The notes under the pieces: generated by a model
The model's database searches: none
The model's input: only the letters and a program-made list of their open reading frames with translations
Told to the model about the DNA's origin: nothing
NCBI GenBank assembly: GCA_026392155.1
Contig: JAPLCP010000048.1
Location: 1 to 36,873 of the forward strand
Direction: 5' to 3'
Source of the DNA: Armatimonadota bacterium
Lineage (GTDB): Bacteria; Armatimonadota; Armatimonadia; Armatimonadales; Armatimonadaceae
Length of the DNA stretch: 36,873 bases
Program-made: the position numbers and the translations under genes
Part shown: positions 268 through 32,707 of the stretch, one piece after another
Position numbering within the stretch: position 1 is the first letter of the stretch
Layout of the letters: each line of letters starts with the position of its first letter

Positions 268-313
268 GGAATACCGTGTTTCCCCCCCCGTTGCACGGGG
301 GCTGGGGGGGAGG
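234..313. repeat. Palindromic intercistronic element, copy 1
   Basis: This GC-rich element is built of two inverted halves, each a short hairpin (CCCCCG..CGGGGG), joined by an AACAATAAGGAA-type spacer. The left half starts CCCCCCTAACCCCCG and the right half ends in a run of G. Related copies lie at 6096-6172 and 7533-7610. This copy supplies the last codons and stop of the upstream gene. Its G-rich end (GGGGGGGAGGAG) forms the Shine-Dalgarno sequence of the gene starting at 321. No T-run follows, so it is not an obvious terminator. Confidence 0.75.
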
Positions 314-320
314 AGAAATT

Positions 321-1850: not shown

Positions 1851-1854
1851 AATC

Positions 1855-2868
1855 ATGAGCTTAAAAGTGGCCGTAGTTGGCCTTGGTGGAATTGGCAATA
1901 CCCACGCGGGTGTTTATATGAAGCGGGAAGACTGCGAGCTGGTCGCCGTCTGCGATATTGTGCAGGAGCGCACCGACAAAGCCGCCGAGAAGTACGGCTG
2001 TCCGGGGTTCTACTCCATCGCAGACATGCTGGCGAGCGGGATTCAGATCGATGCCGTGAGTGTCTGCTCCGCGGGCGTGGAAAACGGTGGCGATCACTAC
2101 GTTCCAACCATGGAACTTCTGGCGGCGGGAATTCCGGTGCTGGGCGAGAAGCCGATCTCCAATAACATCACGCATGCGGAAGAGATGGTCGCACTGGCCA
2201 AAGAGAAGAACCTGCGCTACGGCATTAACCTAAACCATCGGTTCACACCGGCGGCACTGCGCGGCAAGGAGTGGATCAATGAGGGGCGGCTAGGCGAGCT
2301 CAATATCATCAACATGACGATGTGGATCAACAACCCCAATGAGTCCTCGCCCTGGTTCCATGTGCGCGCTCTGCACCCACACTCACTCGATGTCATGCGC
2401 TACTTCGGCGGCGATGTCGAGAAAGTGCAGGCGTTCTTCAAGCGCGGTCCCAAGGCCGATGGCCCGGATGGCAAGCGTGTCTGCTGGTCGAATATGCAAG
2501 TCAACTTACTCTTTAAGAACGGCATTATCGGGCACTTAACGGGAAGCTACGATGCGGGCGGAAGCTACGGCCTCGAAACACTCGAAGTGGTCGGCTCCGA
2601 GGGGCGCTTTGTGCTGCTCGATGCCTGTGAGCACCTGACGTTCTACCCGCGCCGCTCCCGCCAGACCGAGACGTATGACTATCTGGGCGGCATGATGGGC
2701 TTTAGCGAGACTTTTCCCTCGCGCATTGGCAAGTGGGTGGAGCAGAATATCGCGGGTGATTCGCCAGACGAGATTGATGCCTCAGGCGCGGCGGCGCTCC
2801 ATGTCCAGAAGATCATCGAGGCCATTATCGAGTCCTGGGAGACCGGGACCGTGGTGACGATCAAGTAG
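1855..2868 (+). CDS. Gfo/Idh/MocA family NAD(P)-dependent oxidoreductase
   Basis: This 337-residue protein has an N-terminal Rossmann domain (VVGLGGIGNTHA, Gly9-Gly11-Gly14) and the family EKP motif (Glu98-Lys99-Pro100). The C-terminal half is the alpha/beta substrate domain, containing NHRFTPAA and ALHPHSLDVMRYFGG. Members oxidise or reduce sugars, inositols and related polyols. The start ATG has a GGGGAGAGG ribosome binding site. Two bases separate its stop from the next gene, a close paralogue, and both share long stretches such as EEMVALAKEKNL and YGINLNHRFTPAA. The context of an isomerase-type TIM barrel and sulfatase-fold hydrolases suggests a shared catabolic or modifying route for a sugar or cyclitol. 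The exact substrate cannot be read from the sequence. Confidence 0.9.
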   Translation: MSLKVAVVGLGGIGNTHAGVYMKREDCELVAVCDIVQERTDKAAEKYGCPGFYSIADMLASGIQIDAVSVCSAGVENGGDHYVPTMELLAAGIPVLGEKPISNNITHAEEMVALAKEKNLRYGINLNHRFTPAALRGKEWINEGRLGELNIINMTMWINNPNESSPWFHVRALHPHSLDVMRYFGGDVEKVQAFFKRGPKADGPDGKRVCWSNMQVNLLFKNGIIGHLTGSYDAGGSYGLETLEVVGSEGRFVLLDACEHLTFYPRRSRQTETYDYLGGMMGFSETFPSRIGKWVEQNIAGDSPDEIDASGAAALHVQKIIEAIIESWETGTVVTIK

Positions 2869-2870
2869 CC

Positions 2871-3860
2871 ATGCAACGAGTCTGTGTGATCGGCATGGGG
2901 GTGATCGGGAACCGTCATGCCGACATGTACAAGCTGAGTCCGCTCGCGGAGCTGGTCGGGGTCTGTGACCGCGACCGGGCGCGGGCGGATGCGGGTGCGG
3001 CGCGGCTGGGTGTCCCGGCATTTTATGATGTCGAGCAGATGCTGACCGCGCTCCAGCCTGATATCGTGAGCGTGGCAACCGGCGGCTACGAGTACGGCAG
3101 CGACCACTACGCGCCGACCATGCAGGCGCTGGCGGCGGGCTGCCACGTGCTGGGCGAGAAACCCATCTCCAACACGATCGCCGAGGCGGAGGAGATGGTG
3201 GCGCTGGCCAAAGAGAAGAACCTCTGCTACGGCATCAACCTGAACCACCGGTTTACCCCGGCAGCGCGGATTGCGAAGAAGTGGCAGAGCGAGGGGCGGC
3301 TGGGACACTTGCTCTTTATCAACATGAGCATGTGGATCATGAACCCCACCGAGAGCTCACCGTACTTTCAGATCAAAGCCCTGCACCCGCACACGGTCGA
3401 TGTCATGCGGCACTTCTGCGGCGATATCGAGCGCGTGCAGTGTTTTGCGACCATCGCGCCCGGCCGAAAGATCTGGACCACGGCACACTTCTCGATGCAG
3501 TTTAAGAACGGTGTGGTCGGCGGCCTGACCGGATCGTATGATATCGAGCGCGGCCACCCCATGGAGCGCTGTGAGGTCGCGGGAACCGGCGGACGCATCG
3601 TGATTGATGACATGTACCGGGAGGCCACTCTCTACCCGGCGGGCAACCCAGAGAAGCTGGTCTACACCAACCCGCTCTTTGGGGGCTTTGAGAGCTTCAC
3701 GGACACCTTCAAGGATCGCATCCATACATTTGTCCGCGAGGTAGACGAAGGCATCTCCCCGGAAAACCTAGATGGCTCCGGGGCAGATGGCCTCGCGGCA
3801 CAAAGAGTATTACAGGCGGCGATTGAGTCGCTCAACACAGGAACGGTAATAACCCTATGA
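2871..3860 (+). CDS. Gfo/Idh/MocA family oxidoreductase, tandem paralogue
   Basis: This 329-residue protein has the same architecture as its upstream neighbour: Rossmann motif VIGMGVIGNRHA near residues 7-18, LGEKPIS with EKP at 96-98, and an HPHTVDVMRHF segment in the substrate domain. Similarity to the preceding protein runs along the whole length, so the pair arose by tandem duplication. One difference is a shorter stretch after the VQ(A/C)F strand. The next gene starts inside this gene's stop region with a 4-base ATGA overlap, indicating translational coupling. The two paralogues may act on successive or epimeric substrates (for example oxidation then re-reduction around the neighbouring epimerase), but this is inference. 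Confidence 0.9.
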   Translation: MQRVCVIGMGVIGNRHADMYKLSPLAELVGVCDRDRARADAGAARLGVPAFYDVEQMLTALQPDIVSVATGGYEYGSDHYAPTMQALAAGCHVLGEKPISNTIAEAEEMVALAKEKNLCYGINLNHRFTPAARIAKKWQSEGRLGHLLFINMSMWIMNPTESSPYFQIKALHPHTVDVMRHFCGDIERVQCFATIAPGRKIWTTAHFSMQFKNGVVGGLTGSYDIERGHPMERCEVAGTGGRIVIDDMYREATLYPAGNPEKLVYTNPLFGGFESFTDTFKDRIHTFVREVDEGISPENLDGSGADGLAAQRVLQAAIESLNTGTVITL

Positions 3861-4654
3861 AACTTGGCGCGAATTCGGTTTTATTTGGCGGTTTCTCGAT
3901 GCGCGAGGCGTTCGAGCAGATCGCGCGGGCGGGCTACGATGGGATCGAGCTCTCCGCAATCGACGGTATGAGCGAGCACTTGGTGCTGGACCGCTGGCAG
4001 GACGTGGCGGGCGAGATCAAGGCGCTCTCGACAGAGTTTGGGCTGGAGCTACTGGCCATGGAGCAACCGTCGCAGGACGCGGCGAAGATGGAGAAGGCGT
4101 TTCAGGCCGCGGTGGAGATCGGGATTCCGATTGTCAACTGTGGCCCCGGCGGCAAGACGGGCGACGAGGAGAGTCTGCAGAAATCCATCGACTCACTGGG
4201 CGCACTCGCCACGATGGCGGAGAAGTACGGCGTGACGCTCTGTGTAAAAGCCCATGTGGGCGCGGCGATCTGGAACACCCCAACCACGCTGCAGCTGATG
4301 GAGGCGATCACGTCGCCTGCGTTTGGCATTGATATGGACCCGTCGCATATTCACCGTGGGCAAGAGAACCCTGTTGAGGCAATCAGCGCCGTGATCTCCC
4401 GTGTCAAGCACGTCCATATCCGCGACTGCAAGGGCCGCCAGCAGAACCCCGGCAAGCCCGAGATGCAGGCCAATGGCCGCGGCGACATTGATCTTCTGGG
4501 CTATATTCGCGTCCTGCACGAGAGTGGCTACACCGGCCCCGTCGATCTGGAAGTGATCGGAGCGAAGGAGTACTCACTGGTGCAGTGCGCCATTATCGCC
4601 GCCGAGGCACGGGGACACATGCAGGCCTGTCTGCAAGCGTGTGGGGCGCGGTAA
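3857..4654 (+). CDS. Sugar phosphate isomerase/epimerase-type TIM barrel protein
   Basis: This 265-residue protein belongs to the xylose-isomerase-like/AP endonuclease 2 TIM barrel group. Characteristic barrel-end motifs are visible: GYDGIELSA near residue 27, then CVKAHVGAA, GIDMDPSHIHRG, VKHVHIRDCKG, and VDLEVIG near the end. The strand-5 position that is often a metal-binding Glu in sugar isomerases reads Lys (VKAHVG); I believe KPHVG-like variants exist in this family. The later D..H, H.H..D and E positions are kept. The gene overlaps the upstream dehydrogenase by four bases and is followed three bases later by the second sulfatase-fold gene. It likely isomerises or epimerises the keto intermediate made by the dehydrogenases. 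The exact substrate is unknown. Confidence 0.8.
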   Translation: MKLGANSVLFGGFSMREAFEQIARAGYDGIELSAIDGMSEHLVLDRWQDVAGEIKALSTEFGLELLAMEQPSQDAAKMEKAFQAAVEIGIPIVNCGPGGKTGDEESLQKSIDSLGALATMAEKYGVTLCVKAHVGAAIWNTPTTLQLMEAITSPAFGIDMDPSHIHRGQENPVEAISAVISRVKHVHIRDCKGRQQNPGKPEMQANGRGDIDLLGYIRVLHESGYTGPVDLEVIGAKEYSLVQCAIIAAEARGHMQACLQACGAR

Positions 4655-4657
4655 GCC

Positions 4658-6103
4658 ATGAACATTGTCTTTATTGCACTCGACACCCAGCGCGCCGACC
4701 ACCTCGGCTGCTACGGCTACGAAAAAAACACGTCGCCGATTATCGATGCCCTTGCCTCCCAGGGCGTGGTGTTTGAGCGCTGCTACGCGCCCAATATCCC
4801 AACCCACCCATCGTTTACGACCATGCTCACGGGAAAAGAGGCCATTACCCATAACATCGTCAATATCGGCGGGCGCGTCCCCATTGAGGAAGGCGTGCGG
4901 CTCCTGCCTGAGATTCTCAAAGAGCACGGCTGGAACACGGCGGCGATTGATACGATGGGGCGGCACTTCAATCGCGGCTTCGATACCTATATCTCGCCGC
5001 AGTGGGATCGCTCCGACCCGCTCACGCTCCGACGCGCTGAGCATATCACCGATGCGGCGCTGCCGGTTCTCGCCGAGCTGAAGGCGGATAAAGAGAAGCC
5101 GTTCTTTCTCTTTCTGCACTACTGGGACCCGCACACCCCGTACTTACCACCCGCGGACTTTCGGACGATGTTCTACCCCGAGGGCGCTGATCCCTACGAT
5201 GCGAACAACCACTCAATGGACAAGGCCTGGAACGACGAGATGTTCCAGTGGTACTTCCACGACTGGATGCCCGGCGTCACGGATAGCAGCTATGTCAACG
5301 CGCTCTACGATGCGGAGACGGCCTACATGGACTGGCAGCTCCGACGACTCTTCGCGGCGCTGGAGCCAGTCAAGGACGACACCCTGATCGTGATTACCGC
5401 CGACCACGGGGAGATTCTCGATGAGCAGCTAGGCTTCTACGACCACCATGGTCTGTACGAGGGCAATGTCCATATCCCGCTGATCCTGATCTGGCCCGGC
5501 AAGCTCCCCGCCGGCAAGCGCGTCCCCGGCTTTGTGCAGAACCTGGACTACCTGCCGACGTTCTTTGAGCTGGCCGGAATCCCCGACACCGAGAAGCTGG
5601 AAGGCAAGAGCCTGCTGCCCTGCATCTTCGGGGAGCGCGAGGGTAACTACGACGAGCTGTTTCTCTCGGAGGCGACGTGGGAGGTGAAGCGGGCCTATCG
5701 TAACAATAAGTGGAAGTTCATCCACTCGTTCGAGCCCGACCCGCACAACCGCCCCCTGCAAGAGCTCTTTGACCTGGAGGCCGACCCCACCGAGCAAGTG
5801 AATCTTGCGGAGACGCACCCAGAGATTGTCGCGGAGCTGAAGGGTCGGCTCGATGCCTGGGTTGCTAAGCGCCTCGCGGAGACGGGGCGTACGGAGGACC
5901 CGGTTCCGGTGCAAGGTCGCTGTGGGAGCAAGATCGGCACCCCCATCGAGGGCGAGACTCCCGGCGCAGGCGCGACCCCGCTGCACCTGCGCAAGGCAAA
6001 AGAAGCCGCCAATATCCCCAAGCCCGAGGAGCTCAACTCGGCGACGGATCAGAAGTCGGGTAAACCACTTCATGGGTACGTCGAGAAGCCCGCCGCCCCC
6101 TAA
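4658..6103 (+). CDS. Sulfatase-fold hydrolase with Thr nucleophile, second copy
   Basis: This 481-residue paralogue of the 321 gene starts MNIVFIALDTQRADHLGCYGY, with the metal-binding Asp9 and Asp14. The nucleophile segment is I-P-T-H-P-S-F-T-T-M-L-T-G. Thr49 stands at the formylglycine position, the motif Pro51 is kept and the motif Arg is Phe53. The second metal site is ADHGE (Asp249-His250), followed by YDHHGLYE. The C-terminal ~70 residues are an extra, Pro/Gly-rich tail. There is no signal peptide. The stop TAA lies inside the CCCCTAACCCCCG of the repeat element at 6096-6172, so the element defines the C-terminus. Formylglycine-dependent sulfatase activity is unlikely. Phosphodiester, phosphonate-ester or phosphotransfer chemistry is plausible by analogy with Thr enzymes of the superfamily. 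Confidence 0.87.
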   Translation: MNIVFIALDTQRADHLGCYGYEKNTSPIIDALASQGVVFERCYAPNIPTHPSFTTMLTGKEAITHNIVNIGGRVPIEEGVRLLPEILKEHGWNTAAIDTMGRHFNRGFDTYISPQWDRSDPLTLRRAEHITDAALPVLAELKADKEKPFFLFLHYWDPHTPYLPPADFRTMFYPEGADPYDANNHSMDKAWNDEMFQWYFHDWMPGVTDSSYVNALYDAETAYMDWQLRRLFAALEPVKDDTLIVITADHGEILDEQLGFYDHHGLYEGNVHIPLILIWPGKLPAGKRVPGFVQNLDYLPTFFELAGIPDTEKLEGKSLLPCIFGEREGNYDELFLSEATWEVKRAYRNNKWKFIHSFEPDPHNRPLQELFDLEADPTEQVNLAETHPEIVAELKGRLDAWVAKRLAETGRTEDPVPVQGRCGSKIGTPIEGETPGAGATPLHLRKAKEAANIPKPEELNSATDQKSGKPLHGYVEKPAAP

Positions 6104-6172
6104 CCCCCGCAAGCGGGGGAACAATAAGGAAGGAAGCCTCTTATTCCCCCCGCCGGACGGGGGTTAGGGGGG
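6096..6172. repeat. Palindromic intercistronic element, copy 2
   Basis: This is the clearest copy. The left half is CCCCCTAACCCCCG, a loop, then CGGGGGAACAATAAGGAA. The right half is its inverted copy, TTATTCCCCCCG, a loop, then CGGGGGTTAGGGGGG. The stop codon of the upstream gene is the TAA in the left arm. The final AGGGGGG lies six bases before the next ATG and serves as its ribosome binding site. Confidence 0.8.
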
Positions 6173-6177
6173 AAGTT

Positions 6178-7530
6178 ATGAACATCGTTCTTCTCGCCAT
6201 AGATACCCTGCGGCCTGACCATCTGGGGTGCTATGGCTATGGTAAACACACGTCGCCGCAGATCGATGCGCTGGCGGCAGAGTCGGTCGTCTTTGAGCAG
6301 GCGATTGCGGCAGGCATCCCGACCATGCCGTCGTTTACGACCCTGCTCACGGGCCTACATCCGCTGCGGCATGGGATTGTCGCCCATATCGGGGAGAAGC
6401 AGCGGGTCGCGGCGAGCGTCCAGACCCTGCCACAGCTGGCGCAAAAGGCGGGCTGGACGACGATAGGCATTGATAACCTGGTGATTCAGGGCGGTGGTAA
6501 GGGCTCGTGGTTTGCGCGGGGCTTTGACCACTACTCGGGGTTTCTCTACGCGCCCTTTACCAACCAGAGCGAGCAGCTCATCGATCGGGCAATCCAGTTT
6601 GTGGACGAGCAGGACAAGCAAACGCCGTTCTTTCTCTACTGCCACCTCTGGGATCCGCACACGCCCTACGGCCCACCCGCGCCCTACAACACGATGCACT
6701 ACACGCCCGGCAGCGCGGAGTACGCCATGGACGAGGTCTATGCCCATGCGCCAGAGTACTACAAGGCGTTTCTAGGCGAGATGAAGTGCGAGCACCCCGA
6801 CGACTACCCGGCCTATGTCGCGCTCTACGATGGCGAGATTTCCTATGTAGACGTGCAAGTGGGGCGCTTGATTGGACATCTCAAGAACTCTGGAATCTGG
6901 GAAGACACGATCTTTATCTTCATGAGCGATCACGGTGAGGCATTTGGCGAAGGCGAGATTCACTTCGACCACCATGGCCTCTACGATGCGGTGACCCGTG
7001 TCGCACTCATGGCCAAAGTGCCCGGCACCGCGCCTGGTCGCACAAGTGCTCTTGTCTCCACCGAGGACATTCTACCCAGCCTCGCCGCCCTCTGTGGCTG
7101 GGAGTTGCCGACCGGCTACGAGCTCACGGGCCAGAGCTTCGCGCCTGCACTCCAGGGTGAGGCGTTTGCGGGCCGGGAGCGCGTTTTCTGCATCGAGTCG
7201 TCGCGGCAGGCATCGCTGGCGATTCGAACCCGTAAGTGGAAGCTCATCAAACCGATTGTCGAGGATGCACAGGGCAAGCCCCTGCCGCACCTGCACGGAA
7301 CGCCCCGTGACCCCGCTCCCCTGCTCTTCGATCTGGAGGGCGATCCGGGTGAGAAGCACAATGTCGCCAACACATACCCAGAAGTGCGTGAGACGCTGCA
7401 TGCCGAGTTGCTGGCCTGGCACGCCCAAGAAATCGCCCTACGCGGAGGGCACGATCCCATCAAAGAGAATGGTCTGAGCTTGAGCTACGAGGTCTTTATG
7501 AAGCGACTGCTGGCGAGGCATAAGAAATGA
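6178..7530 (+). CDS. Sulfatase-fold hydrolase with Thr nucleophile, third copy
   Basis: This 450-residue protein starts MNIVLLAIDTLRPDHLGCYGY (metal Asp9, Asp14). The nucleophile motif is I-P-T-M-P-S-F-T-T-L-L-T-G, so Thr49 replaces the formylglycine Cys and Phe53 replaces the motif Arg. The second metal site is SDHGE (Asp251-His252), followed by FDHHGLYD. The conserved WDPHTPYGPP segment is shared with the paralogue at 4658. No signal peptide is present. The ribosome binding site is the G-run at the end of the repeat element before it. A further element separates it from cysC. Three cytoplasmic paralogues in one operon suggest related ester substrates; their identity is unknown. Confidence 0.87.
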   Translation: MNIVLLAIDTLRPDHLGCYGYGKHTSPQIDALAAESVVFEQAIAAGIPTMPSFTTLLTGLHPLRHGIVAHIGEKQRVAASVQTLPQLAQKAGWTTIGIDNLVIQGGGKGSWFARGFDHYSGFLYAPFTNQSEQLIDRAIQFVDEQDKQTPFFLYCHLWDPHTPYGPPAPYNTMHYTPGSAEYAMDEVYAHAPEYYKAFLGEMKCEHPDDYPAYVALYDGEISYVDVQVGRLIGHLKNSGIWEDTIFIFMSDHGEAFGEGEIHFDHHGLYDAVTRVALMAKVPGTAPGRTSALVSTEDILPSLAALCGWELPTGYELTGQSFAPALQGEAFAGRERVFCIESSRQASLAIRTRKWKLIKPIVEDAQGKPLPHLHGTPRDPAPLLFDLEGDPGEKHNVANTYPEVRETLHAELLAWHAQEIALRGGHDPIKENGLSLSYEVFMKRLLARHKK

Positions 7531-7532
7531 GC

Positions 7533-7610
7533 CTAGCCCCCCGCCCCCCGTCCAACGGGGGAGATAGAAGGAACTCCTCATTGTCCCCCCGCTGGGCGGG
7601 GGTTAGGGGG
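7533..7610. repeat. Palindromic intercistronic element, copy 3
   Basis: This is a diverged copy of the elements at 234 and 6096. It begins TAGCCCCCCGCCCCCCG, has the inner hairpin CCCCCCG..CGGGGG, a GAAGGAA-like spacer, then CCCCCCGC..GCGGGGGTTAGGGGG. It fills the whole gap between the third hydrolase and cysC. Its terminal GGGGG lies five bases before the cysC ATG. Confidence 0.75.
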
Positions 7611-7615
7611 TTGGC

Positions 7616-8143
7616 ATGAGCTTCGTTGTCTGGCTAACCGGCCTTAGTGGTGCGGGCAAGACCACGGTTGCGCGGGGGCTGGCGGAGGCGCTGCGGGCGC
7701 GAGGTGTCGGCAAGCTTGAAGTACTCGATGGCGATGCGGTACGTGAAAACCTCTCCAAGGGACTGGGGTTCTCAAAAGAGGATCGGGATACCAATGTGGC
7801 ACGGATCGCGTTTGTGGCGCAGCTTTTAGCACGCAACGACATCAACGTGATTGTCGCGGCAATCTCCCCCTACGCCGAGGCGCGGGCGTCGGCACGGGAG
7901 CGGATTGGAGAGGGCTTTGTGGAGGTACACGTGGACTGTGGCCTTCCTGAGCTCGTGCGGCGGGATGTGAAGGGTCTCTATAAAAAAGCCCTCGCTGGAG
8001 AGCTGGCGCACTTTACGGGAGTTTCTGATCCATACGAAGCGCCCGAAAGCCCCGACATTCGGGTGAGTAGCGAAGGCCAGACAGCAGACGAGAGCATCGA
8101 GGCGATTGTGGCCTATCTACAGCGAGAGCAGCGCATCCCGTAG
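7616..8143 (+). CDS. cysC: Adenylylsulfate (APS) kinase
   Basis: This 175-residue enzyme phosphorylates adenosine 5'-phosphosulfate to PAPS, the sulfate donor of sulfotransferases and an intermediate of assimilation. The Walker A loop is GLSGAGKTT (residues 9-17). LDGDAVREN is the DGD motif, AAISPYAEAR carries the conserved Ser, and FTGVSDPYEAPESPDI is the APS-binding segment. Length is normal for a stand-alone enzyme. No ATP sulfurylase or sulfotransferase is in the window, so it must work with enzymes encoded elsewhere or upstream. Its place at the end of a sulfatase-fold operon hints at sulfate-ester metabolism, although those hydrolases lack the formylglycine site. Its 3' end overlaps the convergent sigma factor gene by 27 bases. 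Confidence 0.93.
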   Translation: MSFVVWLTGLSGAGKTTVARGLAEALRARGVGKLEVLDGDAVRENLSKGLGFSKEDRDTNVARIAFVAQLLARNDINVIVAAISPYAEARASARERIGEGFVEVHVDCGLPELVRRDVKGLYKKALAGELAHFTGVSDPYEAPESPDIRVSSEGQTADESIEAIVAYLQREQRIP

Positions 8144-13483: not shown

Positions 13484-13933
13484 TTACAAAATATTGTACG
13501 TAATCACTTCATCACGTAGCAGAAACCGTGATTTATAGACACTGGCATAGGCCTGCACGAAGCTATCCACGGCATTAATATCTACCACGATGTCCACCAC
13601 GCGATCCGTGATGTCCTCACCATTGAACCAGATGCGCAAGTGGCGCATATCTACCATCGGGTGCTGGTTCTCCATGATGATCGTGTAGCCAGGAAACTCC
13701 ATGGTGATACGTCCGGGAAAGATGTCGTAGGGTGCCATCGGATCTTCCGCGGGCCGGATCAGGGCGGTTAGCTCCGCCCCTTCCCAGATTCCACCCTCCA
13801 CTTCATCACCCCAGTCGTCTCGTCCTGCCCGGAGCTCGACATAGAGCTGGGCTGCCTCGATAGAGTAGCCCCCGCTCGTCAGACTAGTCGTGTCCCAGTC
13901 GCCTCCCGTGCTAAAAATAAACTCATTTCTCAA
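13484..13933 (-). CDS. Hypothetical beta-rich protein with TTG start
   Basis: I do not recognise this 149-residue protein. It is acidic, rich in Asp/Glu and beta-prone segments (FPGRITMEFPGYTIIMENQHP; ITDRVVDIVVDINAVDSF). The start is a TTG that overlaps the TGA stop of the upstream lipoprotein gene (TTGA). A perfect GGAGGAGG lies about nine bases before it, inside the lipoprotein's last codons. The nearby ATG is out of frame. This argues for strong translational coupling to the lipoprotein. The function is unknown; an extracellular or envelope partner of the lipoprotein is possible, but no export signal is seen. Confidence 0.62.
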   Translation of the reverse strand: MRNEFIFSTGGDWDTTSLTSGGYSIEAAQLYVELRAGRDDWGDEVEGGIWEGAELTALIRPAEDPMAPYDIFPGRITMEFPGYTIIMENQHPMVDMRHLRIWFNGEDITDRVVDIVVDINAVDSFVQAYASVYKSRFLLRDEVITYNIL

Positions 13934-15006
13934 CGGCGGCGGCCTCCTCCAAACGAGCTACGACCTCCGCCAAAGCTACCACCCGAGCTACGCCCCCCAC
14001 CAAAGCTACTGCCACCAGAAGGGCGACTACTGGAGAAGCCCGAGCTACCTGAGCCAAAGCTAGGACGGCTTGCCGACGAGCCGCCACCAAAGCTAGGACG
14101 CGAGCCGCTCCCAAAGCTAGGACGCGAGCCGCTGGAGCCACCACCAAAGCTAGGACGCGAGCCGCTCCCAAAGCTAGGACGTGAGGCACTGAAGCCACTG
14201 CCACCAGGGCGTGTGCCCGCTGTGGAGCGCCCACCAAACGAGCCTGTACCACCCGATGAGCGGCTGAACGAGCCCGCTGAAGGGCTACGACGGCCTACCG
14301 ACGAGTAATTAAAGTTGCTACGGCTATTGTTGATCAGCACACGATTGGTAGGGTTAGAGCGGTAGTAGGTACTGTAGCTATTCCAGCCGTAGTAGGGTCG
14401 TCCCCCGATATTGGCCATCATTCCGACCATAGCCCCAAAGGCCATCCCCGAAACCCAGGGACTTGTACTATAGTAGCCTCCGTAGTAGGTCATTCCAGGG
14501 TACCAGCCCATTCCCGTGTAGGCAGACCAGGATGGTGCCACCCCCAGATAAACGGGCTGCGTGTAAGCATAGTTCTGAGGGAAGGGATACCACTTAGCTC
14601 CCTGAGCCGCAGCATTTTCCAAAAAGGCACCTTCACGAACATAAAGGGTCGGGGTGGTGTTGTTCTCGTTGATAAAGTACATCTGGCCGCTGGTTCTGCC
14701 GAACTTCATGACGTACATGTTCTGGTTCTCAAAGGGAACCGCAATGGTCTCGCCTGAGGCAGCGTAGAGCTGGTAGCCTCCTTGGTCAAACACAGCACGC
14801 GTGATCGGAACCTGCTGACCGGCGGGCACATCACGCCAGTTGTAGACCTCGCCGTTAGAAACAGGAGCCGCCATGGCGGGTTGGGGCGGCGCAACCGGTG
14901 GTGCCATCACTACAGGGCGCGGCTGTGTACAACCTGCTAGCCCCGTCGCAGCAAGTCCTAAAACTCCAAAACGCATTGTATTTGTCATATTTCGAAACCT
15001 CATCAC
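13930..15006 (-). CDS. Lipoprotein with Gly/Ser-rich SRPSFG repeats
   Basis: This 358-residue protein has a lipoprotein signal: hydrophobic core, then LAGC with Cys26. A Pro/Ala linker and a folded part of about 150 residues (YNWRDVPAGQQVPITRAV...) follow. A Tyr/Gly/Trp-rich stretch (about 165-215, many YYGG and WYPG motifs) then leads into a C-terminal ~110 residues of low complexity with repeats of SRPSFGSG/SRPSFGGGSS, ending in GGGRRR. The composition recalls adhesive or surface-associated proteins. Start codons at 15006, 15003 and 14988 are all possible; I list the longest. A TATAGT -10-like box lies about 14 bases upstream. It is the first gene of a three-gene operon. Confidence 0.8.
   Translation of the reverse strand: MMRFRNMTNTMRFGVLGLAATGLAGCTQPRPVVMAPPVAPPQPAMAAPVSNGEVYNWRDVPAGQQVPITRAVFDQGGYQLYAASGETIAVPFENQNMYVMKFGRTSGQMYFINENNTTPTLYVREGAFLENAAAQGAKWYPFPQNYAYTQPVYLGVAPSWSAYTGMGWYPGMTYYGGYYSTSPWVSGMAFGAMVGMMANIGGRPYYGWNSYSTYYRSNPTNRVLINNSRSNFNYSSVGRRSPSAGSFSRSSGGTGSFGGRSTAGTRPGGSGFSASRPSFGSGSRPSFGGGSSGSRPSFGSGSRPSFGGGSSASRPSFGSGSSGFSSSRPSGGSSFGGGRSSGGSFGGGRSSFGGGRRR
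14052..14181. repeat. Coding tandem repeat (SRPSFG units)
   Basis: Five copies of CCAAAGCTAGGACG occur about every 17-42 bases inside the lipoprotein gene. They encode the repeated RPSFG core, separated by variable Gly/Ser codons. The near-identical DNA implies recent expansion or gene conversion. Confidence 0.75.
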
Positions 15007-26022: not shown

Positions 26023-27687
26023 TTACAGGTTTGAGCCGCCGCCGCCTGTATTGATCTCCTCAATAATACGAGGAGTCACAAAGATGAGCGTCTCGACACC
26101 CGTGACCGTGTTCGATTTCTGCTTAAAGAGCTCACCAATCAGCGGCAGACTTGACAAGAACGGGATACGCAGCTCGCCACCATCTTCCTGCTTTGTGATA
26201 AACCCACCCAGCATCATCGTCTCGCCACTTTTGATACGGCGGAACGTAGAAACTCCCTGAGTCGTGGAGCGTGGAGGAGTATTGGGCGTAATAGCCGTGG
26301 TAAACGACTGTAGCTGTGGGTTTAGCAACATGCTGATCGTACCATCACCATTAATATGGGGTGTCACGAAGAACTGGTTACTTGCCGTAATTGGAATAGG
26401 CTGGGTAGCAACCGTCGGCTGCCCACCTAGCTGTCCAGGAATCACAACAGACTGGTTGATAAAGGCCGTATCAAAGATAAACACACTTGCAGGGGTGTTG
26501 TTCGACGTACTGATGATAGGAGCCTGGAGAATCCGGTTTGTCTGCTTGATATAGGCAGCGCGCAAGCTTGCAACAGCATTTCCGGAAGCGTACTGAACCG
26601 CCAGGTTCGGTGCGCTACCCGCTGCCGCTTGCTGGCTGAGATCAAGGTTATTTGCGGGACTAAACTGCCACTGGATTCCAAAGCTGTTCACATCCTGAAT
26701 GTTGACCGTGACAAACTCAGCGCGAATCTCAACTTGTTTTGGTGCAACGTCCAGCAGACGAATCAGCGCTTTTAGCTCGTCAATATCAGCAGGGTCTCCT
26801 TGGACAATGAGAGTATTATCGGCATCACTGGAGAGGATATTGTCAATACCTGGAGGACGAAGCGAGCGCTGGTTCTGTCCTTGGCCGCCCGCACCAGGCT
26901 GGCCACCACCGATACCACCACCGGGCTGACCGCCAAAACCACCACCTTGGCGCCCACCACCGCCGAAGCCACCAGCACCACCACCGAAGCCACCGCCGCC
27001 CATCATGCCGCCGCCCATCATGCCACCACGTTGACCTGCTCCCAGAACACCGGAGCCCGTCAGATCGGTGGGAAGAATAGGGTTGCCATTCGGCTGCAAG
27101 ATGTTCGGCGGGGCAAGAGGCTGCATATTTCTGCTTGCTGCCATTGCCTCAGGAATAATCATTGTCTTGACGAGGTAGTTATAGGTAGGATCATCCATCA
27201 ACTTCACAAAATCCGAGGGGGCCAGGAAATTGAGGGGGATCTTCACAAACTGCGACTTGGAACGCGCAGGTGCGGTCGGGACAACGACGGTCGCGACAGG
27301 CTCTGGCGTCTTAGATTTTTCCACAACGGGTGCTTGACCGGCAGGTCGAAGATAGTAAATCCCGTCGCTCTCTTCAACAGAAGCTCCGGCAGCTCGCGCA
27401 ATCGCCTTCAGCGTCGCCTCAACGCCTTTGTCTCGTAGCTTAAGAGTGATCTTCTGGTAAGCATTAGCCTTGTCCCCAGGAATAATCACGACATTATCTA
27501 AACCGCTCTGCTGCGCAAGAATCGTAATTGCTTCCTCAAGACGAGCGTCCCGAAGATCAATATCAAGCGTACTGCTAGACTCTTTAACGGGCGTCGCTTG
27601 CGCCCGTGCCACCGACACCGTTGCCGCCAGCGAGATCGAAAACGCACACGTCAGTAACAAAGCACTACGCTGCCAGGGATTTTGCAT
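26023..27687 (-). CDS. pilQ: Type IV pilus secretin, PilQ-type
   Basis: This 554-residue outer-membrane secretin lets the pilus (or a type II-like system) pass the outer membrane. A signal peptide ends near VARAQA (about residue 30). An STN-like domain follows (about 40-118), then a short Pro-rich linker and an N-type domain. A Gly/Met-rich insert (about 213-275, GGMMGGGMMGGGG type) precedes the secretin domain (about 290-545). The classical C-terminal secretin signature is seen as IPFLSSLPLIGELFK. The insert sits just before a DADNTLIVQG N1-type motif. The start has a strong GGAGGATAT. It is the last gene before the terminator and is followed by aroK, as in gammaproteobacteria. Confidence 0.9.
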   Translation of the reverse strand: MQNPWQRSALLLTCAFSISLAATVSVARAQATPVKESSSTLDIDLRDARLEEAITILAQQSGLDNVVIIPGDKANAYQKITLKLRDKGVEATLKAIARAAGASVEESDGIYYLRPAGQAPVVEKSKTPEPVATVVVPTAPARSKSQFVKIPLNFLAPSDFVKLMDDPTYNYLVKTMIIPEAMAASRNMQPLAPPNILQPNGNPILPTDLTGSGVLGAGQRGGMMGGGMMGGGGFGGGAGGFGGGGRQGGGFGGQPGGGIGGGQPGAGGQGQNQRSLRPPGIDNILSSDADNTLIVQGDPADIDELKALIRLLDVAPKQVEIRAEFVTVNIQDVNSFGIQWQFSPANNLDLSQQAAAGSAPNLAVQYASGNAVASLRAAYIKQTNRILQAPIISTSNNTPASVFIFDTAFINQSVVIPGQLGGQPTVATQPIPITASNQFFVTPHINGDGTISMLLNPQLQSFTTAITPNTPPRSTTQGVSTFRRIKSGETMMLGGFITKQEDGGELRIPFLSSLPLIGELFKQKSNTVTGVETLIFVTPRIIEEINTGGGGSNL

Positions 27688-27747
27688 ACATATCCTCCAA
27701 AACTCCGCAACACTTTCGCTTCTTATTTATTTTACGAAAATGCTATA

Positions 27748-27769
27748 CAGGGGCGGGATTCCGCCCCTG
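27748..27769. other. Intercistronic hairpin between the STN protein gene and pilQ
   Basis: CAGGGGCGG and CCGCCCCTG form a perfect 9-bp stem around a 4-base loop. On the transcribed (minus) strand the following bases are TATAGCATTTTCG, only weakly T-rich. It may be an attenuator or an mRNA-stabilising stem. The 135-base gap otherwise holds only the pilQ ribosome binding site. Confidence 0.6.
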
Positions 27770-27822
27770 ATTAACTAACTTGATTATTTCAATACTTTGA
27801 GCGAGCCAACATAAGCAGAAGC

Positions 27823-28521
27823 TTAGCGACCAAAACCACCGAAGCCGCCGCCCATGCCGCCCATGCCGCCCATCATGCCGCCGCCCATGCCGCCCATGCC
27901 GCCCATCATGCCGCCGCCCATGCCGCCCATGCCACCCATCATGCCGCCCATGCCGCCGCCCATGCCGCCCATGCCACCCATCATGCCGCCCATGCCGCCG
28001 CCCATGCCGCCCATCATGCCGCCGCCCATGCTCATAGCACGCGTAAAGAAGCTCACATTGATGACGCCACCTAAAATCTGGCTCAGATCCATAGGATCAA
28101 GATAGGTCAAGTTGATGCGCTCGTAAGCTGCATTTGGCCGAGCGATTTCCTCGGTTCCTGTGGGAGCAGAGGTTGTGTCTTGTGGGTTCTGATTAATCAC
28201 ACGGGGCTTGACAATCCAGACACTATTCTCCTTGGTGTAGGTCAAAGGAACGCTTGCGGCACGCATGATCAGTTTAAGCGCATTCTCGAAAGGCTGCTCA
28301 GTGATCTTAAGCGTGACAAAACCGACAACATTATTGTCAATAATGTAGTTATTGATTCCTGCCTGCTTGAAGGCAGCCTCCAGCGTCGAGCGAATCGGCG
28401 CATCTTGAAGGTCAAAGGTCACATTGTTTAACTTCTCTTGTCGCGCTGAAGCACTCGTAGGAAGAGCAACAACCACTCCTCCGATTAAGATAGTCAGTGC
28501 CAAAAACTTCATCTTATTCAT
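27823..28521 (-). CDS. Secreted STN-domain protein with Gly/Met tail
   Basis: This 232-residue protein has a signal peptide (cleavage near SASA, residue 26). A secretin/TonB short N-terminal (STN) type domain follows (about 33-105, VTFDLQDAPIRSTLEAAFKQAGINNYIID...VTLKITEQPFENALKLIMRA). A second small domain (INLTYLDPMDLSQILGGVINV) leads into a ~70-residue tail of GGMMGGMGG repeats. It resembles the periplasmic front half of a secretin without the membrane channel. It may be an accessory ring or pilotin-like partner of the neighbouring PilQ. A separate strong promoter (28571-28599) precedes it, and AAGGAA serves as ribosome binding site. Confidence 0.8.
   Translation of the reverse strand: MNKMKFLALTILIGGVVVALPTSASARQEKLNNVTFDLQDAPIRSTLEAAFKQAGINNYIIDNNVVGFVTLKITEQPFENALKLIMRAASVPLTYTKENSVWIVKPRVINQNPQDTTSAPTGTEEIARPNAAYERINLTYLDPMDLSQILGGVINVSFFTRAMSMGGGMMGGMGGGMGGMMGGMGGMGGGMGGMMGGMGGMGGGMMGGMGGMGGGMMGGMGGMGGGFGGFGR
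27842..28031. repeat. Coding tandem repeat for the GGM tail
   Basis: About 190 bases are built from CCGCCCATG and CCGCCCATCATG units in a higher-order pattern of roughly 27-48 bases. The repeat encodes (GGM)n and GGMM. The DNA copies are nearly identical, suggesting slippage or recombination. Confidence 0.85.
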
Positions 28522-28570
28522 AGTTCATTTCCTTGTCTTGCTTTACCCCGCAAAACCCAAACTCTACACC

Positions 28571-28599
28571 ATTATACCCACTTGATTTCAAAGCGCCAA
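28571..28599 (-). promoter_or_regulatory. Internal pil promoter before the STN protein gene
   Basis: On the minus strand TTGGCG (28599-28594), a 17-base spacer and a perfect TATAAT (28576-28571). A start near 28564 gives a ~43-base leader with AAGGAA before the ATG. It could drive the STN protein and pilQ separately from pilMNOP. Confidence 0.75.
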
Positions 28600-28608
28600 G
28601 AGGTATTT

Positions 28609-29535
28609 TTATCCTGTTGGAGCTCCTCCAACACCGGCTTTACCGCCGGGTCCCATGCCGCCGGGTCCCATGCCACCGCCGGGCCCCATGCCACCACCAG
28701 GCCCCATGCCACCACCAGGCCCCATGCCACCGCCTGTTCCTCCCGTTGAGAACTGCTGGCGAAGAGCATCACGAACGGCGGGAGCCAAACCGGAGAGCTT
28801 CACCTCAACCGAACGTCCATCTTTCGCACGCAGAATTAAGCTCTCCATAGAGATAGACTCCACGACCAAAGGAGCAACGCCGGGGACGCCACTCTCGACT
28901 TCCGCACCAGGTTGTACGATTGTGATCGTCGAATCAGGTGGTGCACCAGACTCGATAATGGCTGTAATACCTCCGTTATAGAACACACCAGCGACACGCC
29001 GCGCGACAGGAGGCAGAGGCGGAAGCGAGTCAATGTCTGTGCTTGGCTCGGGCGTTGGTGGCACGAGCGGCAGAGGAGCTTGCGTACGATGGCTGATCAC
29101 ATAGTCCCAAGCAGGCGTGATCTGGACGACCGGCTTAAACATAGACTCGAAAGGATCTTTACGTGACGCCAGCGCAGGAGCCCCATCCCTGATAGGAGCA
29201 GGCTTAGCACCAGGCAATCCGCCACCCATAGGCATACCCCCTTGCCCAGACATATCTGACCCACCACCACCCCACAGCTTCTTCATACTCTCAGGAGCGG
29301 TATCAAAGGCAGTTGAACGACCTCCTGCTACTTTAGGAGCACCACCTCCCGTAAGAGTGGATGTTCCTCCCCCAGTAGACACACCACCAGGCATCATATC
29401 TTGCGGAGGGCGGCCTTGCATCGCAGGATCACCACCTGTTGGTGCCTGAGCAGGAGGGCTGTCAGAAGAACTACAACCTATAAGACTAATCACCCCAAGG
29501 AGGGCCAAAGATAATACCAACGTATTTGTTTTCAT
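28609..29535 (-). CDS. PilP-like pilus lipoprotein with Gly/Met/Pro tail
   Basis: This 308-residue lipoprotein has the lipobox LIGC with Cys21. A long low-complexity region (Gly, Pro, Met and Thr; about 22-130) leads to a KDPFESM motif, typical of PilP-like proteins. A beta-rich domain follows (about 180-260, RRVAGVFYNGGITAIIESG...VVESISMESLILRAKDGRSVEVKL) that matches the periplasmic PilP homology region in pattern. The tail is six GPGGGM-type repeats ending GKAGVGGAPTG. ATG 29535 was chosen because the lipoprotein signal starts there; the upstream 40 codons overlap the pilO region. Position between pilO and the secretin genes also fits PilP. The family call is by position and pattern. Confidence 0.72.
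   Translation of the reverse strand: MKTNTLVLSLALLGVISLIGCSSSDSPPAQAPTGGDPAMQGRPPQDMMPGGVSTGGGTSTLTGGGAPKVAGGRSTAFDTAPESMKKLWGGGGSDMSGQGGMPMGGGLPGAKPAPIRDGAPALASRKDPFESMFKPVVQITPAWDYVISHRTQAPLPLVPPTPEPSTDIDSLPPLPPVARRVAGVFYNGGITAIIESGAPPDSTITIVQPGAEVESGVPGVAPLVVESISMESLILRAKDGRSVEVKLSGLAPAVRDALRQQFSTGGTGGGMGPGGGMGPGGGMGPGGGMGPGGMGPGGKAGVGGAPTG
28651..28733. repeat. Coding 18-base tandem repeat (GPGGGM units)
   Basis: Four to five near-identical copies of an 18-base unit (CCATGCCACCACCAGGCC type) encode the repeated GPGGGM in the PilP-like tail. Confidence 0.8.
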
Positions 29536-29572
29536 CACGTGTTCTCTTCTCTTTCGCAAAGGCTCAGGCAAT

Positions 29573-30367
29573 TTAAGCCCCTCCCATAGTTGCCATTCCA
29601 GCAGCACCAGGCATCGACTTACCACCACCACCCATATCAGGCCCCATGCTACCACTCATGCCGCCGCCCATCATGCCACCGCCCATGCCGCCCATCATGC
29701 CGCCACCCATACCTCCAGCGCCTGCGCCACCTGAGGCAGCAGGGAAGTTCGGGCCGGGTTTATCCCCTTGCGTGAACTCAAAGATCTGGATGTTATAGCT
29801 ACCCATCAGACGAGGGGAGTTTCCTTGCAAATTGAAACCTGTCACCAGTACCAAGCGATCAAAATTATTCCAGCGCTCGACATGGCGAAGGACAGCATCA
29901 AAGTTACCAGAGACCGTCACCGCCCCTTTGTTGTCGGCCAGAATTGGCATACTGCACTGGTTCGGGTCGTTGGGAGGCGGATAGAGGCTAAAGCTTGACT
30001 GTACGATCTGTACCCCCTTATCTGCCTTAACAAACTTCTCCAGCTTTGGACCGAGGTCGTAGAGCTGCTCTTTCTGGATCTGCTGCCAAGCGGTATAGAG
30101 ATTGGAGACATTGATGCGAGGCATGAAGCGCCTGTCATAGCGCCCCCAGTCAGCCTTAGCCGCCGCAACACTCACAAGAGCTGCCTTGAATTTCTTATCC
30201 GCCTGTGGCTTGGTCTGTGCTATCTGATCGCGTGCCTCGAAGCGAGCTTGCTCTTTCGCAATTTCCTCATTTCTTGGCGAGTTCAGGGTAAACCAGAGAG
30301 TTAGCACTGCAATCAGTGAGAGAACTCCAAAGATGATCCAAATTTGAGGACGTGTTACTTTACTCAT
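29573..30367 (-). CDS. pilO: Type IV pilus inner-membrane protein, PilO-type
   Basis: This 264-residue protein has one N-terminal transmembrane helix (about 10-28, IWIIFGVLSLIAVLTLWF). A periplasmic coiled-coil stretch (30-75, rich in Glu, Lys and Ala) and a ferredoxin-like part (about 120-200, with VSGNFDAVLRHVERWNNFDRLVLVTGFNLQG) follow, as in PilO. PilO pairs with PilN to link the cytoplasmic PilM to the secretin. A Gly/Met-rich tail of about 55 residues (GGGMMGGMGGGMMGGGMSGSMGP) replaces the usual C-terminus. A strong TAGGAGG lies before the ATG. Confidence 0.82.
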   Translation of the reverse strand: MSKVTRPQIWIIFGVLSLIAVLTLWFTLNSPRNEEIAKEQARFEARDQIAQTKPQADKKFKAALVSVAAAKADWGRYDRRFMPRINVSNLYTAWQQIQKEQLYDLGPKLEKFVKADKGVQIVQSSFSLYPPPNDPNQCSMPILADNKGAVTVSGNFDAVLRHVERWNNFDRLVLVTGFNLQGNSPRLMGSYNIQIFEFTQGDKPGPNFPAASGGAGAGGMGGGMMGGMGGGMMGGGMSGSMGPDMGGGGKSMPGAAGMATMGGA

Positions 30368-30388
30368 AGTTTTTTTCCTCCTACCGTA

Positions 30389-31147
30389 CTAATCGGTAGG
30401 TGCCCCTCCACTCTTACCACCACCGGCTGCGGGAGGCATTCCCCCATCACCGCCAGGCCCCATTGCCCCAGGTCCCATGCTACCACTCATGCCACCAGAG
30501 CTCATGCCGGGAGGCATCCCACCTGTCATCCCACCTGCCATGCCAGCGGCACCCGCAATTGGAGCCATGGGTGGTACGACATTGTGAATGAGCTGAGCGG
30601 CAACCTGAATGGGGAACCCACGCTGCGCATCGGGAGGAAGCTGACGGATCTGCTGCATGCGCTGCCAGTCCGGCATCCCTTGAATACTCAGGGCCTTCAG
30701 GTCCGGGTTTCCAAAAAGTGTCAGGTAGAAACGTCCTACATCTTCCAGTTTCGGCACCGAGGCGCTAATACTCAGGCTATCTCCCTGAACCGCCATACTG
30801 TTGTACTCCACACCACGGTAGGTGTAGCGCGCAACATTACGATAGACCAAGCCAGGAAATCGGTTGTAGTACTGGATGTTCTTGACAAAATCCACTTTGG
30901 CCTGAATCGGCGCAATCTTGGCAAGCTCGTCTTTGGTCTTTTGTTCGGTGGCTTCAACAGCCGCCGCAGCCGTGTCGGCATTGTTTGCAGCCGTCAGGGT
31001 CTCATTGTATTTTGGATCCTGAAACGCAAAACGATAGACAAGCGGCGCGGCGATACAGGCCGCCAAGACAGAACCCGCCCACCACCAGGTGGCCCGAGTC
31101 TTCTTTTGTTCCGCGATATAAGCTGGTAAGAGGTTGATGCGCAGCAT
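30389..31147 (-). CDS. pilN: Type IV pilus assembly protein, PilN-type
   Basis: This 252-residue protein starts MLRINLLPAY, the INLLP motif by which PilN binds PilM in the cytoplasm. One transmembrane helix follows (about 22-40, WWAGSVLAACIAAPLVYRF), then a coiled coil (45-90) and a small periplasmic domain. From about residue 195 the tail is Gly/Met/Pro-rich (GGMTGGMPPGMSSGGMSGSMGP) and ends GGGKSGGAPTD, much like the end of the PilP-like protein. It sits between pilM and pilO, as expected. Confidence 0.85.
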   Translation of the reverse strand: MLRINLLPAYIAEQKKTRATWWWAGSVLAACIAAPLVYRFAFQDPKYNETLTAANNADTAAAAVEATEQKTKDELAKIAPIQAKVDFVKNIQYYNRFPGLVYRNVARYTYRGVEYNSMAVQGDSLSISASVPKLEDVGRFYLTLFGNPDLKALSIQGMPDWQRMQQIRQLPPDAQRGFPIQVAAQLIHNVVPPMAPIAGAAGMAGGMTGGMPPGMSSGGMSGSMGPGAMGPGGDGGMPPAAGGGKSGGAPTD

Positions 31148-31216: not shown

Positions 31217-32707
31217 TTATTCTTTTCCGAGAACCGCATCACGCGCGGCAAGTCCCAGAGCGACGGTCATTGCCGAAGCGATCTCCATACGGCGTGTCAC
31301 CGACATGTTCTTAGACACGACATTTAGCCCGGCAAAGGGATCGGCGACGCTTGTTGGGACTCCTAGATCGTACTCAATGTACTGATCCAGATTCTGCACA
31401 CGAGCGGAGCCCCCACAGAGCAGGATCAGATCCATCGTGTCGTTAGGATACTTCGAGCGGAAGTAATCCACAGATCGTCGCAGCTCCATCACAAACTCAC
31501 CCAGCATCGGCAAGATCGCATTGAAAACTTCTTTGCGACGCTCATAATGAGGCTCAACTTGCTCCACAGGGACCATCGCAGGCTCCACCACAACAGGTGC
31601 GTCGGCAATATCGGGCGCGGCTTCCTCAAACGGGCTCGCGAAAGGATTCGCAGGCTCGGCGAAGGGATTTGTCGCGGTTGAGTTGGCAAAGGGATTGTCA
31701 TCGGCAATATCAAAGGGAGAAGCGGGTGCCGCCGCTGGAGTCTCACCACCGCCAAAGAGGGGAGGTGGCAAAGGGGCGCTCATGTCCACGTCGAAGGGTG
31801 TCGAGATACCAGCGTCTTCCATTCCCCCCGCCGTACCGTACATCATCTCATCGGCCTGACCACTCTTAACCAGATCCATCAAGATGACGGCATGTGCCCG
31901 CTTCTCGTCCTCGGCAGCATCCATCGAGAGCCCTAGGCGATCCGCAATGGCTCGGGTGAGGTTGTCGCCACCGAGCGGAATCGTACGGGGGTAGCGCAGT
32001 GCGCCTCCCTTGAAGACGCCCACATCGGTCTGTGATGCGCCCATGTTGACGATCACCACATTTTTACTCTGCAGTCCCTCTTTCGAGAGATCAATCAGAG
32101 CACGACCTACCGCAAGCGGCTCAACATCAATGACCAGTGGCGTTAGCCCGGCGGCGGTCAGGGTGTTGATGTGCTGGGCGATCATGTCCCGCTGAGCAAC
32201 CGCAAGCAGCACTTCCATGTTGGGATTATTGGGATCGTTATCCGTCTCGGGATTGTCAATTTTCTGGAAAGACAGCTCAACATCACTGGCGGCGAAGGGA
32301 ATATGGCGCTCGACTTCCCACTTCATCGTCTCGGCCAGCTCGCTCGGGGTCATCTTAGGAACCTCGATCACGCGCACGACCATTCCTGCGGCCCCCGCCA
32401 CGGAACAGACGCACTTCGTGGCCTTGATGCCATTTTTCGTGCGCATCTGCTTCAGCGCTGCCCCGAGTGTTTTCGGATCGGCGATGACTCCCTGCATCAC
32501 TGTACCCGGCGGGGTGTTTTCGATAGCAAGGCCCGTGACACGCAAGCCACTGCCTGCCCCACTCACCTCAACCATCTTAATGGTCTGTGTTCCGATGTCC
32601 AAACCGACGAACGCTCCGCCGCTCGGTCTGGCACGAACCACTGGTTTTGGACGTGGAGCAGCCTTCGCTCCTCCGCCTTTTTTAGTCCCTTCGCCCAATC
32701 TCGCCAC
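31217..32707 (-). CDS. pilM: Type IV pilus assembly ATPase-fold protein, PilM-type, with NPF insert
   Basis: This 496-residue actin-like (FtsA/PilM fold) cytoplasmic protein binds the PilN N-terminus. Phosphate-1 motif VGLDIGTQTIKMVEV (about 34-48), IVNMGASQTDVGVF (phosphate 2) and LILLCGGSARVQNL (adenosine) are visible. It is longer than usual PilM (~350) because of a Lys/Pro-rich N-terminal tail (1-30) and an insert at about 278-388. The insert is acidic/Pro-rich with DNPFA, TNPFA and ANPFA motifs at 338-356 and lies before the last helical and adenosine-binding part. The start is GTG 32707 with AAGGAAGGA upstream. It is first of the pil operon. Confidence 0.9.
   Translation of the reverse strand: MARLGEGTKKGGGAKAAPRPKPVVRARPSGGAFVGLDIGTQTIKMVEVSGAGSGLRVTGLAIENTPPGTVMQGVIADPKTLGAALKQMRTKNGIKATKCVCSVAGAAGMVVRVIEVPKMTPSELAETMKWEVERHIPFAASDVELSFQKIDNPETDNDPNNPNMEVLLAVAQRDMIAQHINTLTAAGLTPLVIDVEPLAVGRALIDLSKEGLQSKNVVIVNMGASQTDVGVFKGGALRYPRTIPLGGDNLTRAIADRLGLSMDAAEDEKRAHAVILMDLVKSGQADEMMYGTAGGMEDAGISTPFDVDMSAPLPPPLFGGGETPAAAPASPFDIADDNPFANSTATNPFAEPANPFASPFEEAAPDIADAPVVVEPAMVPVEQVEPHYERRKEVFNAILPMLGEFVMELRRSVDYFRSKYPNDTMDLILLCGGSARVQNLDQYIEYDLGVPTSVADPFAGLNVVSKNMSVTRRMEIASAMTVALGLAARDAVLGKE

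Follow-up and report, generated by a model that had tools for sequence, protein, structure and literature searches.

Glycine-rich tails on periplasmic pilus proteins of Armatimonadota and the matched C termini of PilN, PilO, and PilP

Five glycine-rich segments in a pil operon

The minus strand of contig JAPLCP010000048.1 (assembly GCA_026392155.1; Armatimonadota bacterium, family Armatimonadaceae), whose 36,873 nucleotides are called the window below, contains a type IV pilus operon in the order pilM-pilN-pilO-pilP-[STN protein]-pilQ, followed by aroK-like and aroB-like genes. PilN, PilO, a PilP-like lipoprotein, a protein with a single secretin N0 domain (here, the STN protein), and the PilQ secretin each have a Gly-rich segment of 50 to 76 residues, which confirmed what the first-pass annotation of this DNA had described. 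Two kinds of segment can be told apart. Those of PilN, PilO, and PilP form a matched set; the STN protein has a low-complexity tail, to which the PilQ insert is related. The features are as follows.

31217..32707, minus strand: PilM (TIGR01175, 222.8 bits, over the cut-off of 133), cytoplasmic and without a Gly tail, which served as a control
30389..31147, minus strand: PilN, 252 amino acids, assigned from operon position and a phylum profile match to the Myxococcus PilN chain 3jc8_Na (E = 1.8e-11)
30392..30553, minus strand: C-terminal tail of PilN, Gly/Met/Pro-rich, residues 199 to 252
29573..30367, minus strand: PilO, 264 amino acids, assigned from operon position and a weak profile match to PilO chain 3jc8_Oa (E = 0.0066)
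29576..29761, minus strand: C-terminal tail of PilO, Gly/Met-rich, residues 203 to 264
28609..29535, minus strand: PilP-like lipoprotein, 308 amino acids from the ATG at 29535, with lipobox LIGC and a predicted core of PilP/GspC HR domains
29203..29400, minus strand: N-terminal linker of PilP with Gly-rich stretches, residues 46 to 111
28612..28770, minus strand: C-terminal tail of PilP, Gly/Met-rich with GPGGGM repeats, residues 256 to 308
27823..28521, minus strand: STN protein, 232 amino acids, with a signal peptide, one secretin N0 domain, the start of a second domain, and a tail
27826..28053, minus strand: GGM tail of the STN protein, residues 157 to 232, in the same position phylum-wide
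26023..27687, minus strand: PilQ secretin, 554 amino acids (Secretin PF00263, E = 1.3e-29, over cut-off; weaker STN and Secretin_N matches)
26857..27069, minus strand: internal Gly-rich insert of PilQ, residues 207 to 277, within the Secretin_N domain

By family models, the identities of PilM, encoded directly upstream of pilN, and of the PilQ secretin are clear; PilQ also matched TIGR02515 (E = 2.5e-36), under the curated cut-off. The Pfam PilN model matched 3 of 16 members, with no match for the window PilN alone, and the Pfam PilO model matched 1 of 16. The predicted PilP core resembled the HR domains of GspC (VIA Z, 9.6) and PilP (8.4 and 8.1), with a Foldseek match to 2y4y (E = 0.11; probability, 1.00). 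The STN core has a predicted N0 fold (Foldseek match to 4ar0, the meningococcal PilQ N0, E = 8.6e-6; VIA Z, 10 to 11), for which Pfam STN gave an E value of only 0.037. Confidence in the predicted structures was moderate outside the N0 and HR domains. No C-terminal secretin barrel was found in the 232-residue STN protein, as the Secretin domain gave no match in the family-model scans. The gene set and order and the PilM and secretin families are those of the type IVa pilus (PilM/N/O/P and PilQ) of Myxococcus, Pseudomonas, and Neisseria, and the PilN profile match to Myxococcus, the PilP HR fold, and the presence of PilT in the genome are further common traits. The operon differs in the C-terminal tails of PilN, PilO, and PilP, which match within the genome, and in the N0-only tailed protein between PilP and PilQ. 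PilM itself has a disordered-looking insert with NPFA repeats at about 31640-31801, minus strand (NPFANSTATNPFAEPANPFASPF).

The first-pass annotation had called all five segments Gly/Met-rich tails. Four are indeed C-terminal, but that of PilQ is internal; likewise, the Gly/Met label suits the STN protein (30% Met in the window genome), PilO, and PilN but not PilQ, whose insert is chiefly GGF/GGQ with 5% Met. The motifs that it quoted are correct: PilN and PilO share SGSMGP, as part of a common GGMSGSMGP with 20 identical nucleotides, and PilN and PilP terminate in GKSGGAPTD and GKAGVGGAPTG, respectively. Genome-wide, GAPT[D/G] followed by a stop occurs in pilN and pilP only, a third pattern match running into TGG with no stop. 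The background for the rarity of such segments was 347 kb of the window genome plus pattern searches. Among 314 non-overlapping open reading frames (ORFs) in the 347 kb, just 6 contain a Gly-rich segment of at least 40 residues. Four belong to the pil operon, where a longer antisense ORF kept PilN out of the count, and the remaining two are secretins from two other systems. A 261-codon open frame antisense to pilN (window 30344-31129, plus strand) is probably a by-product of codon composition.

The genome-wide pattern search found more GGM-type stretches in few proteins, including GroEL and a second STN-type protein. GroEL of the window genome (L066, G000:C98) ends in a Gly/Met tail (GGGGGGGGMPGMGGMGGF). 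Two more STN-type proteins are encoded outside the pil operon, on G000:C140 (L080:2161-2922, minus strand) and G000:C219 (L121:1977-2678); the C140 copy has a core 88% identical to that of the operon STN protein and its own long GGM tail. The earlier statement that such parts are missing from standard PilNOPQ proteins holds only in part, given the Gly-rich inserts of the two other secretins in this genome and Thermus PilW, the PilP counterpart, which is reported to be Gly/Pro-rich (PMC13039148).

Matching ends of PilN, PilO, and PilP

Orthologous operons were compared from relatives of the same order and from two sets, of 20 and 40 regions, elsewhere in the phylum. To score end matching, we compared the last 12 and the last 25 residues with Gly matches set to zero and permuted within- against between-genome pairs; the P values have a floor given by the number of shuffles, and the relatedness of the genomes makes the between-genome comparison harder to beat. 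In the first set, PilN, PilO, and PilP ends matched at P <= 0.0007 over the last 12 residues. The second, independent set gave P values of 0.0002 for PilN-PilO, 0.0024/0.0002 for PilO-PilP, and 0.0196/0.0040 for PilN-PilP, and the combined permutation z scores for the three pairs were 12.2, 8.7, and 4.1. The whole tails of these proteins are also more alike within than between genomes, and the STN and PilQ segments are not alike to them in this way. The first-pass annotation had remarked that the tails look related; the relationship is stronger than it claimed, since the three C termini match within genomes phylum-wide. Matching is also seen between tails that are not Gly-rich, such as RYGMTGT/RYGMQGT (G146), EEY/EEY (G035), and KLRLGGGRN/KIRLRMGGGGRD (G086).

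Several comparisons limit this effect to the three proteins. No pair with the STN protein or PilQ showed significant end matching in the second set. Weak values had appeared in the first set at one or the other length for PilM-PilN (0.026), PilM-PilQ (0.023), PilO-PilQ (0.015), and PilP-STN (0.0097 to 0.033); those for PilO-PilQ and PilP-STN failed to replicate (PilP-STN over the last 12 residues went from 0.0097 to 0.58), in a replication that was run without PilM. A second pilMNO-GspC system, found largely in genomes of the same order, has Gly-rich segments in just 1 of 20, 1 of 20, and 1 of 18 proteins and showed no end matching (P = 0.51, 0.51, and 0.67); two loci where one ORF was assigned to both genes were left out of this test, and the main sets were likewise screened for double assignment. 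The scoring of Gly as zero, the end tests with PilM, the STN protein, and PilQ, and the second system argue against an artifact of genome composition. Homogenization driven by proximity was ruled out as the sole cause, as pilP and the STN gene are adjacent and their whole tails are unmatched. The Gly-rich segments of the STN protein and PilQ did match each other (P of about 0.001), a value confounded by the homology of the two proteins, and the C-terminal test is inapplicable to the internal PilQ insert.

The codons and substitution rates bear on whether the matching arose from DNA copying. In strongly matched genomes, codon agreement at matched identical residues was close to expectation for PilN-PilO (70 observed versus 63.6 expected) and PilN-PilP (22 versus 24). 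Ratios of nonsynonymous to synonymous substitution rates (dN/dS) for the PilN and PilO tails were 0.02 to 0.10 among three close species, and the one pair available for the other class gave 0.06 for the PilQ insert and 16 synonymous but 0 nonsynonymous changes for the STN tail. Thus, the tails are under amino-acid-level purifying selection within a genus. Between the window genome (G000) and G001, tail dN/dS was 0.14 to 0.45; the tails are thus maintained by protein-level selection over short times and turn over between genera.

Neutral low-complexity expansion, by replication slippage and gene conversion between neighboring genes and tolerated at free C termini, is therefore improbable. It has in its favor that the DNA of the STN tail in the window is a GGC/ATG repeat and that pilN and pilO of G001 have 60 identical nucleotides in common, so that DNA copying occurs too. 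However, with codons mostly as expected and low dN/dS in the PilN and PilO tails, recent copying or neutral slippage does not explain the PilN/PilO/PilP matching, and the phylum-wide position of the tails, the unmatched second system, and an Arg/Lys bias (see below) already largely contradict this explanation.

A common docking tag is another explanation. The ends of PilN, PilO, and PilP would each bind one type of site on a third, fast-evolving partner, such as a cell-wall factor, the STN/PilQ tail, or a periplasmic PDZ-type protein. The match is strong over the very last 12 residues, genome-specific short end motifs (RYGMxGT-stop and GAPTx-stop) are present on these genes only, and several genomes match in the short end alone (e.g., EEY or PAP). 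On the other hand, the end motif varies from genus to genus, which demands a co-evolving partner; that partner is hypothetical, and the matching also runs through whole Gly-rich tails. We regard a docking tag as a minority possibility.

Distribution and composition across Armatimonadota

The tails are conserved in position across Armatimonadota. The order N-O-P-STN-Q on one strand was kept in all 53 complete operons; one genus of the same order has a further short protein of secretin-N type, placed between PilP and the STN protein (L039:4163-4855 and L043:6506-6883). All complete STN proteins of the first set have a Gly-rich tail, as do 29 of 32 in the second set at the same threshold; the other three end in low-complexity sequence in which Ser, Asn, and Arg are abundant. 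At one locus (L192, genome G074), the protein at the STN position ends in an Asn/Tyr/Arg-rich, prion-like stretch in place of a Gly-rich tail. PilN, PilO, PilP, and PilQ have Gly-rich segments in many genomes but not in all, and several genomes without them keep the STN tail. The segments tend to co-occur (Fisher P = 4e-6 for PilO-PilP and 0.002 for PilP-PilQ), figures that are inflated by kinship among the genomes. PilT (TIGR01420, over cut-off) was encoded in 32 of 32 genomes, tailed or tail-poor, so the machine does not require Gly-richness. A retraction-specific role of the tails was dropped, as PilT in all 32 gives no contrast.

These data qualify the earlier claim that every periplasmic part of the machine carries such a segment, which holds for the window genome and many relatives but not for those with the STN tail only. 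The first-pass annotation had named the lack of tails in close relatives with functional pili, together with the lack of a deletion phenotype, as evidence against its view. Half of this was found for PilN, PilO, PilP, and PilQ, in genomes where the pilus is known from the PilT gene only, but the STN tail persists. An STN alignment of 30 rows contained no stretch with sufficient conservation to scan the sequence collection. With a closer set of 7 rows, such a scan gave 22 loci, each from a record titled Armatimonadota, Chthonomonadia, or an unspecified bacterial genome; its use of one pattern limits how far other groups can be excluded. Our literature search, in which journal coverage was incomplete, found no paper that describes tails of this kind in PilN, PilO, or the STN protein.

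Methionine in the tails is lineage-specific, with Phe/Tyr in its place elsewhere. Many genomes of the same order have tails of the GGYPGGGG or GGF type with 0% Met. Met and Phe/Tyr are anticorrelated in the STN, PilN, PilO, and PilQ segments, in which Cys and His are near zero, and a larger STN set gave a rho of -0.40 for Met against Phe/Tyr/Trp (P = 0.001) and of -0.78 for Gly against Ser/Asn. Copper binding, which the first-pass annotation had proposed, is thus unlikely as a general function, and metal binding or oxidant scavenging by Met-rich chains appears very improbable overall, despite the 30% Met of the window STN tail: many orthologous tails have Phe/Tyr and no Met, and the conserved Met ligands (with His/Cys) of copper-binding Met-rich proteins are not a feature of these tails.

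The STN tails combine Gly/Ser/Asn spacers (mean spacer content, 69%) with Met/Phe/Tyr/Trp as putative stickers, a composition that points to disorder. Lys is nearly absent relative to Arg (Arg:Lys, 145:2, versus 320:265 in the core; P = 6e-30). Of 60 STN proteins, 39 end in an aromatic residue, compared with 3 to 7 of 60 to 67 for the other four proteins. Sticker spacing is mixed (27% three, 25% four, and 13% five residues), a pattern more in keeping with a flexible spacer than with a strict GGX lattice. RGG/FUS-type low-complexity domains likewise have Gly/Ser/Asn spacers, Tyr/Phe, and a preference for Arg over Lys. The STN tails share all three (for RGG and YGG motifs, see PMC6821194). RGG/FUS-type domains work mostly on RNA, either cytosolic or nuclear, whereas the STN tails are exported and we propose no RNA role for them.

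A chaperone-like lining, in which polyproline-II helices or a hydrophobic brush along the secretin/alignment cavity would ease pilus passage or seal the lumen, is suggested by analogy with GroEL. The Gly-Met tails of GroEL/Hsp60, the analogue studied in most depth, are alike in their GGM repeats, flexible C-terminal position, and association with a ring machine; they adopt polyproline-II helices and resemble abductin, the elastic protein of the bivalve hinge ligament, which is likewise a flexible chain with polyproline-II helix (PMC12571646). Their function needs hydrophobicity and flexibility (PMC11978752), Met and aromatic residues interchange in the pilus tails, and GroEL of the window genome has a GGM-type tail. 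GroEL tails are, however, about 13 to 19 residues long and cytoplasmic, whereas the tails here reach 50 to 100 residues on several periplasmic proteins with Met replaceable by Phe/Tyr, and abductin is an animal extracellular structural material to which we claim no homology. Because the sticker spacing of the STN protein is not a strict three-residue repeat and a lining leaves unexplained why PilN, PilO, and PilP match one another and not STN/PilQ, this explanation is rather unlikely.

A function in reach, with Gly/Pro-rich stretches lengthening components across a thick periplasm, also draws on an analogy. It has been suggested for Thermus PilW, a counterpart of PilP/GspC that is reported to be Gly/Pro-rich and flexible in a periplasm of about 70 nm (PMC13039148), and PilP of the window has a Gly-rich N-terminal linker. 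PilW is one protein alone, and the text consulted mentions no matching with the ends of PilN or PilO. The segments of PilN, PilO, PilP, and the STN protein follow the final folded domain of each protein and join no two domains, and a spacer needs no sequence matching, which makes reach a doubtful explanation.

A possible role for the tails

PilN, PilO, and PilP form one inner-membrane complex. In our best reading, in which our confidence is about even, multivalent tails that co-evolve keep the alignment complex and the secretin vestibule together. The tails would act as flexible multivalent interaction elements, and those of PilN, PilO, and PilP would associate like with like in the alignment complex, hence their common sequence grammar, tethering the periplasmic cage through the flexing that comes with pilus extension and retraction. 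The STN protein would add an N0-type subunit, docked to PilP and/or the N0 ring of PilQ. In Neisseria, the HR domain of PilP binds the secretin N0 domain (PMC3441751), and a small protein of G001 (L125:1613-2266, minus strand) has an N0 (STN) domain fused to a PilP-like stretch (BLASTP E values of 1e-18 to STN and 8e-9 to PilP), which makes a contact between the STN protein and PilP plausible. The STN tail, with its Gly spacers, Met/Phe/Tyr/Trp, and Arg, might form with the PilQ insert a second self-associating layer around or inside the secretin vestibule, as a fuzzy network or a polyproline-II-type bundle. The interlocking and condensate formation that the first-pass annotation had imagined would both be compatible with these sequence data.

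Several observations weigh against the association of like tails. Strong matching is found in a minority of genomes for each pair (24 of 66, 15 of 61, and 12 of 60). Codon identity of PilO-PilP is in modest excess (46 versus 33), in addition to the copying between pilN and pilO of G001, and the PilP tails are looser in close relatives (dN/dS, 0.23 to 0.39). Some genomes without Gly-rich PilN, PilO, and PilP tails still encode PilT. Finally, one external partner that recognizes all three ends could equally yield the matching.

More tentatively, the tails of PilN, PilO, and PilP, species-specific and kept alike by selection on the protein, may constitute a co-evolving, self-recognizing code, by which the tails of the same machine associate and those of a second related machine do not, while the phylum-wide N0-only protein would bring a condensate-type tail to the secretin. 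If true, disordered tails would here supply a bacterial envelope machine with a homotypic specificity code. Pili and type II secretion systems both have alignment complexes that must assemble from the correct partners and remain coupled across the periplasm under load, an unsettled problem for which matched, fast-changing yet selected tails on three subunits offer a directly testable specificity mechanism. The protein that combines N0 with a low-complexity tail is a candidate additional pilus subunit in Armatimonadota, and its tail belongs to a type of condensate-like sequence that has been little studied in the bacterial periplasm.

Elsewhere in the window, positions 13930-15006 (minus strand) encode an exported protein with a long Ser/Gly-rich repeat tail of the RPSFGSGS type. 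Judged from translations only, a cluster at 276-8143 includes three sulfatase-like genes, two oxidoreductase-like genes, and one adenylylsulfate-kinase-like gene.

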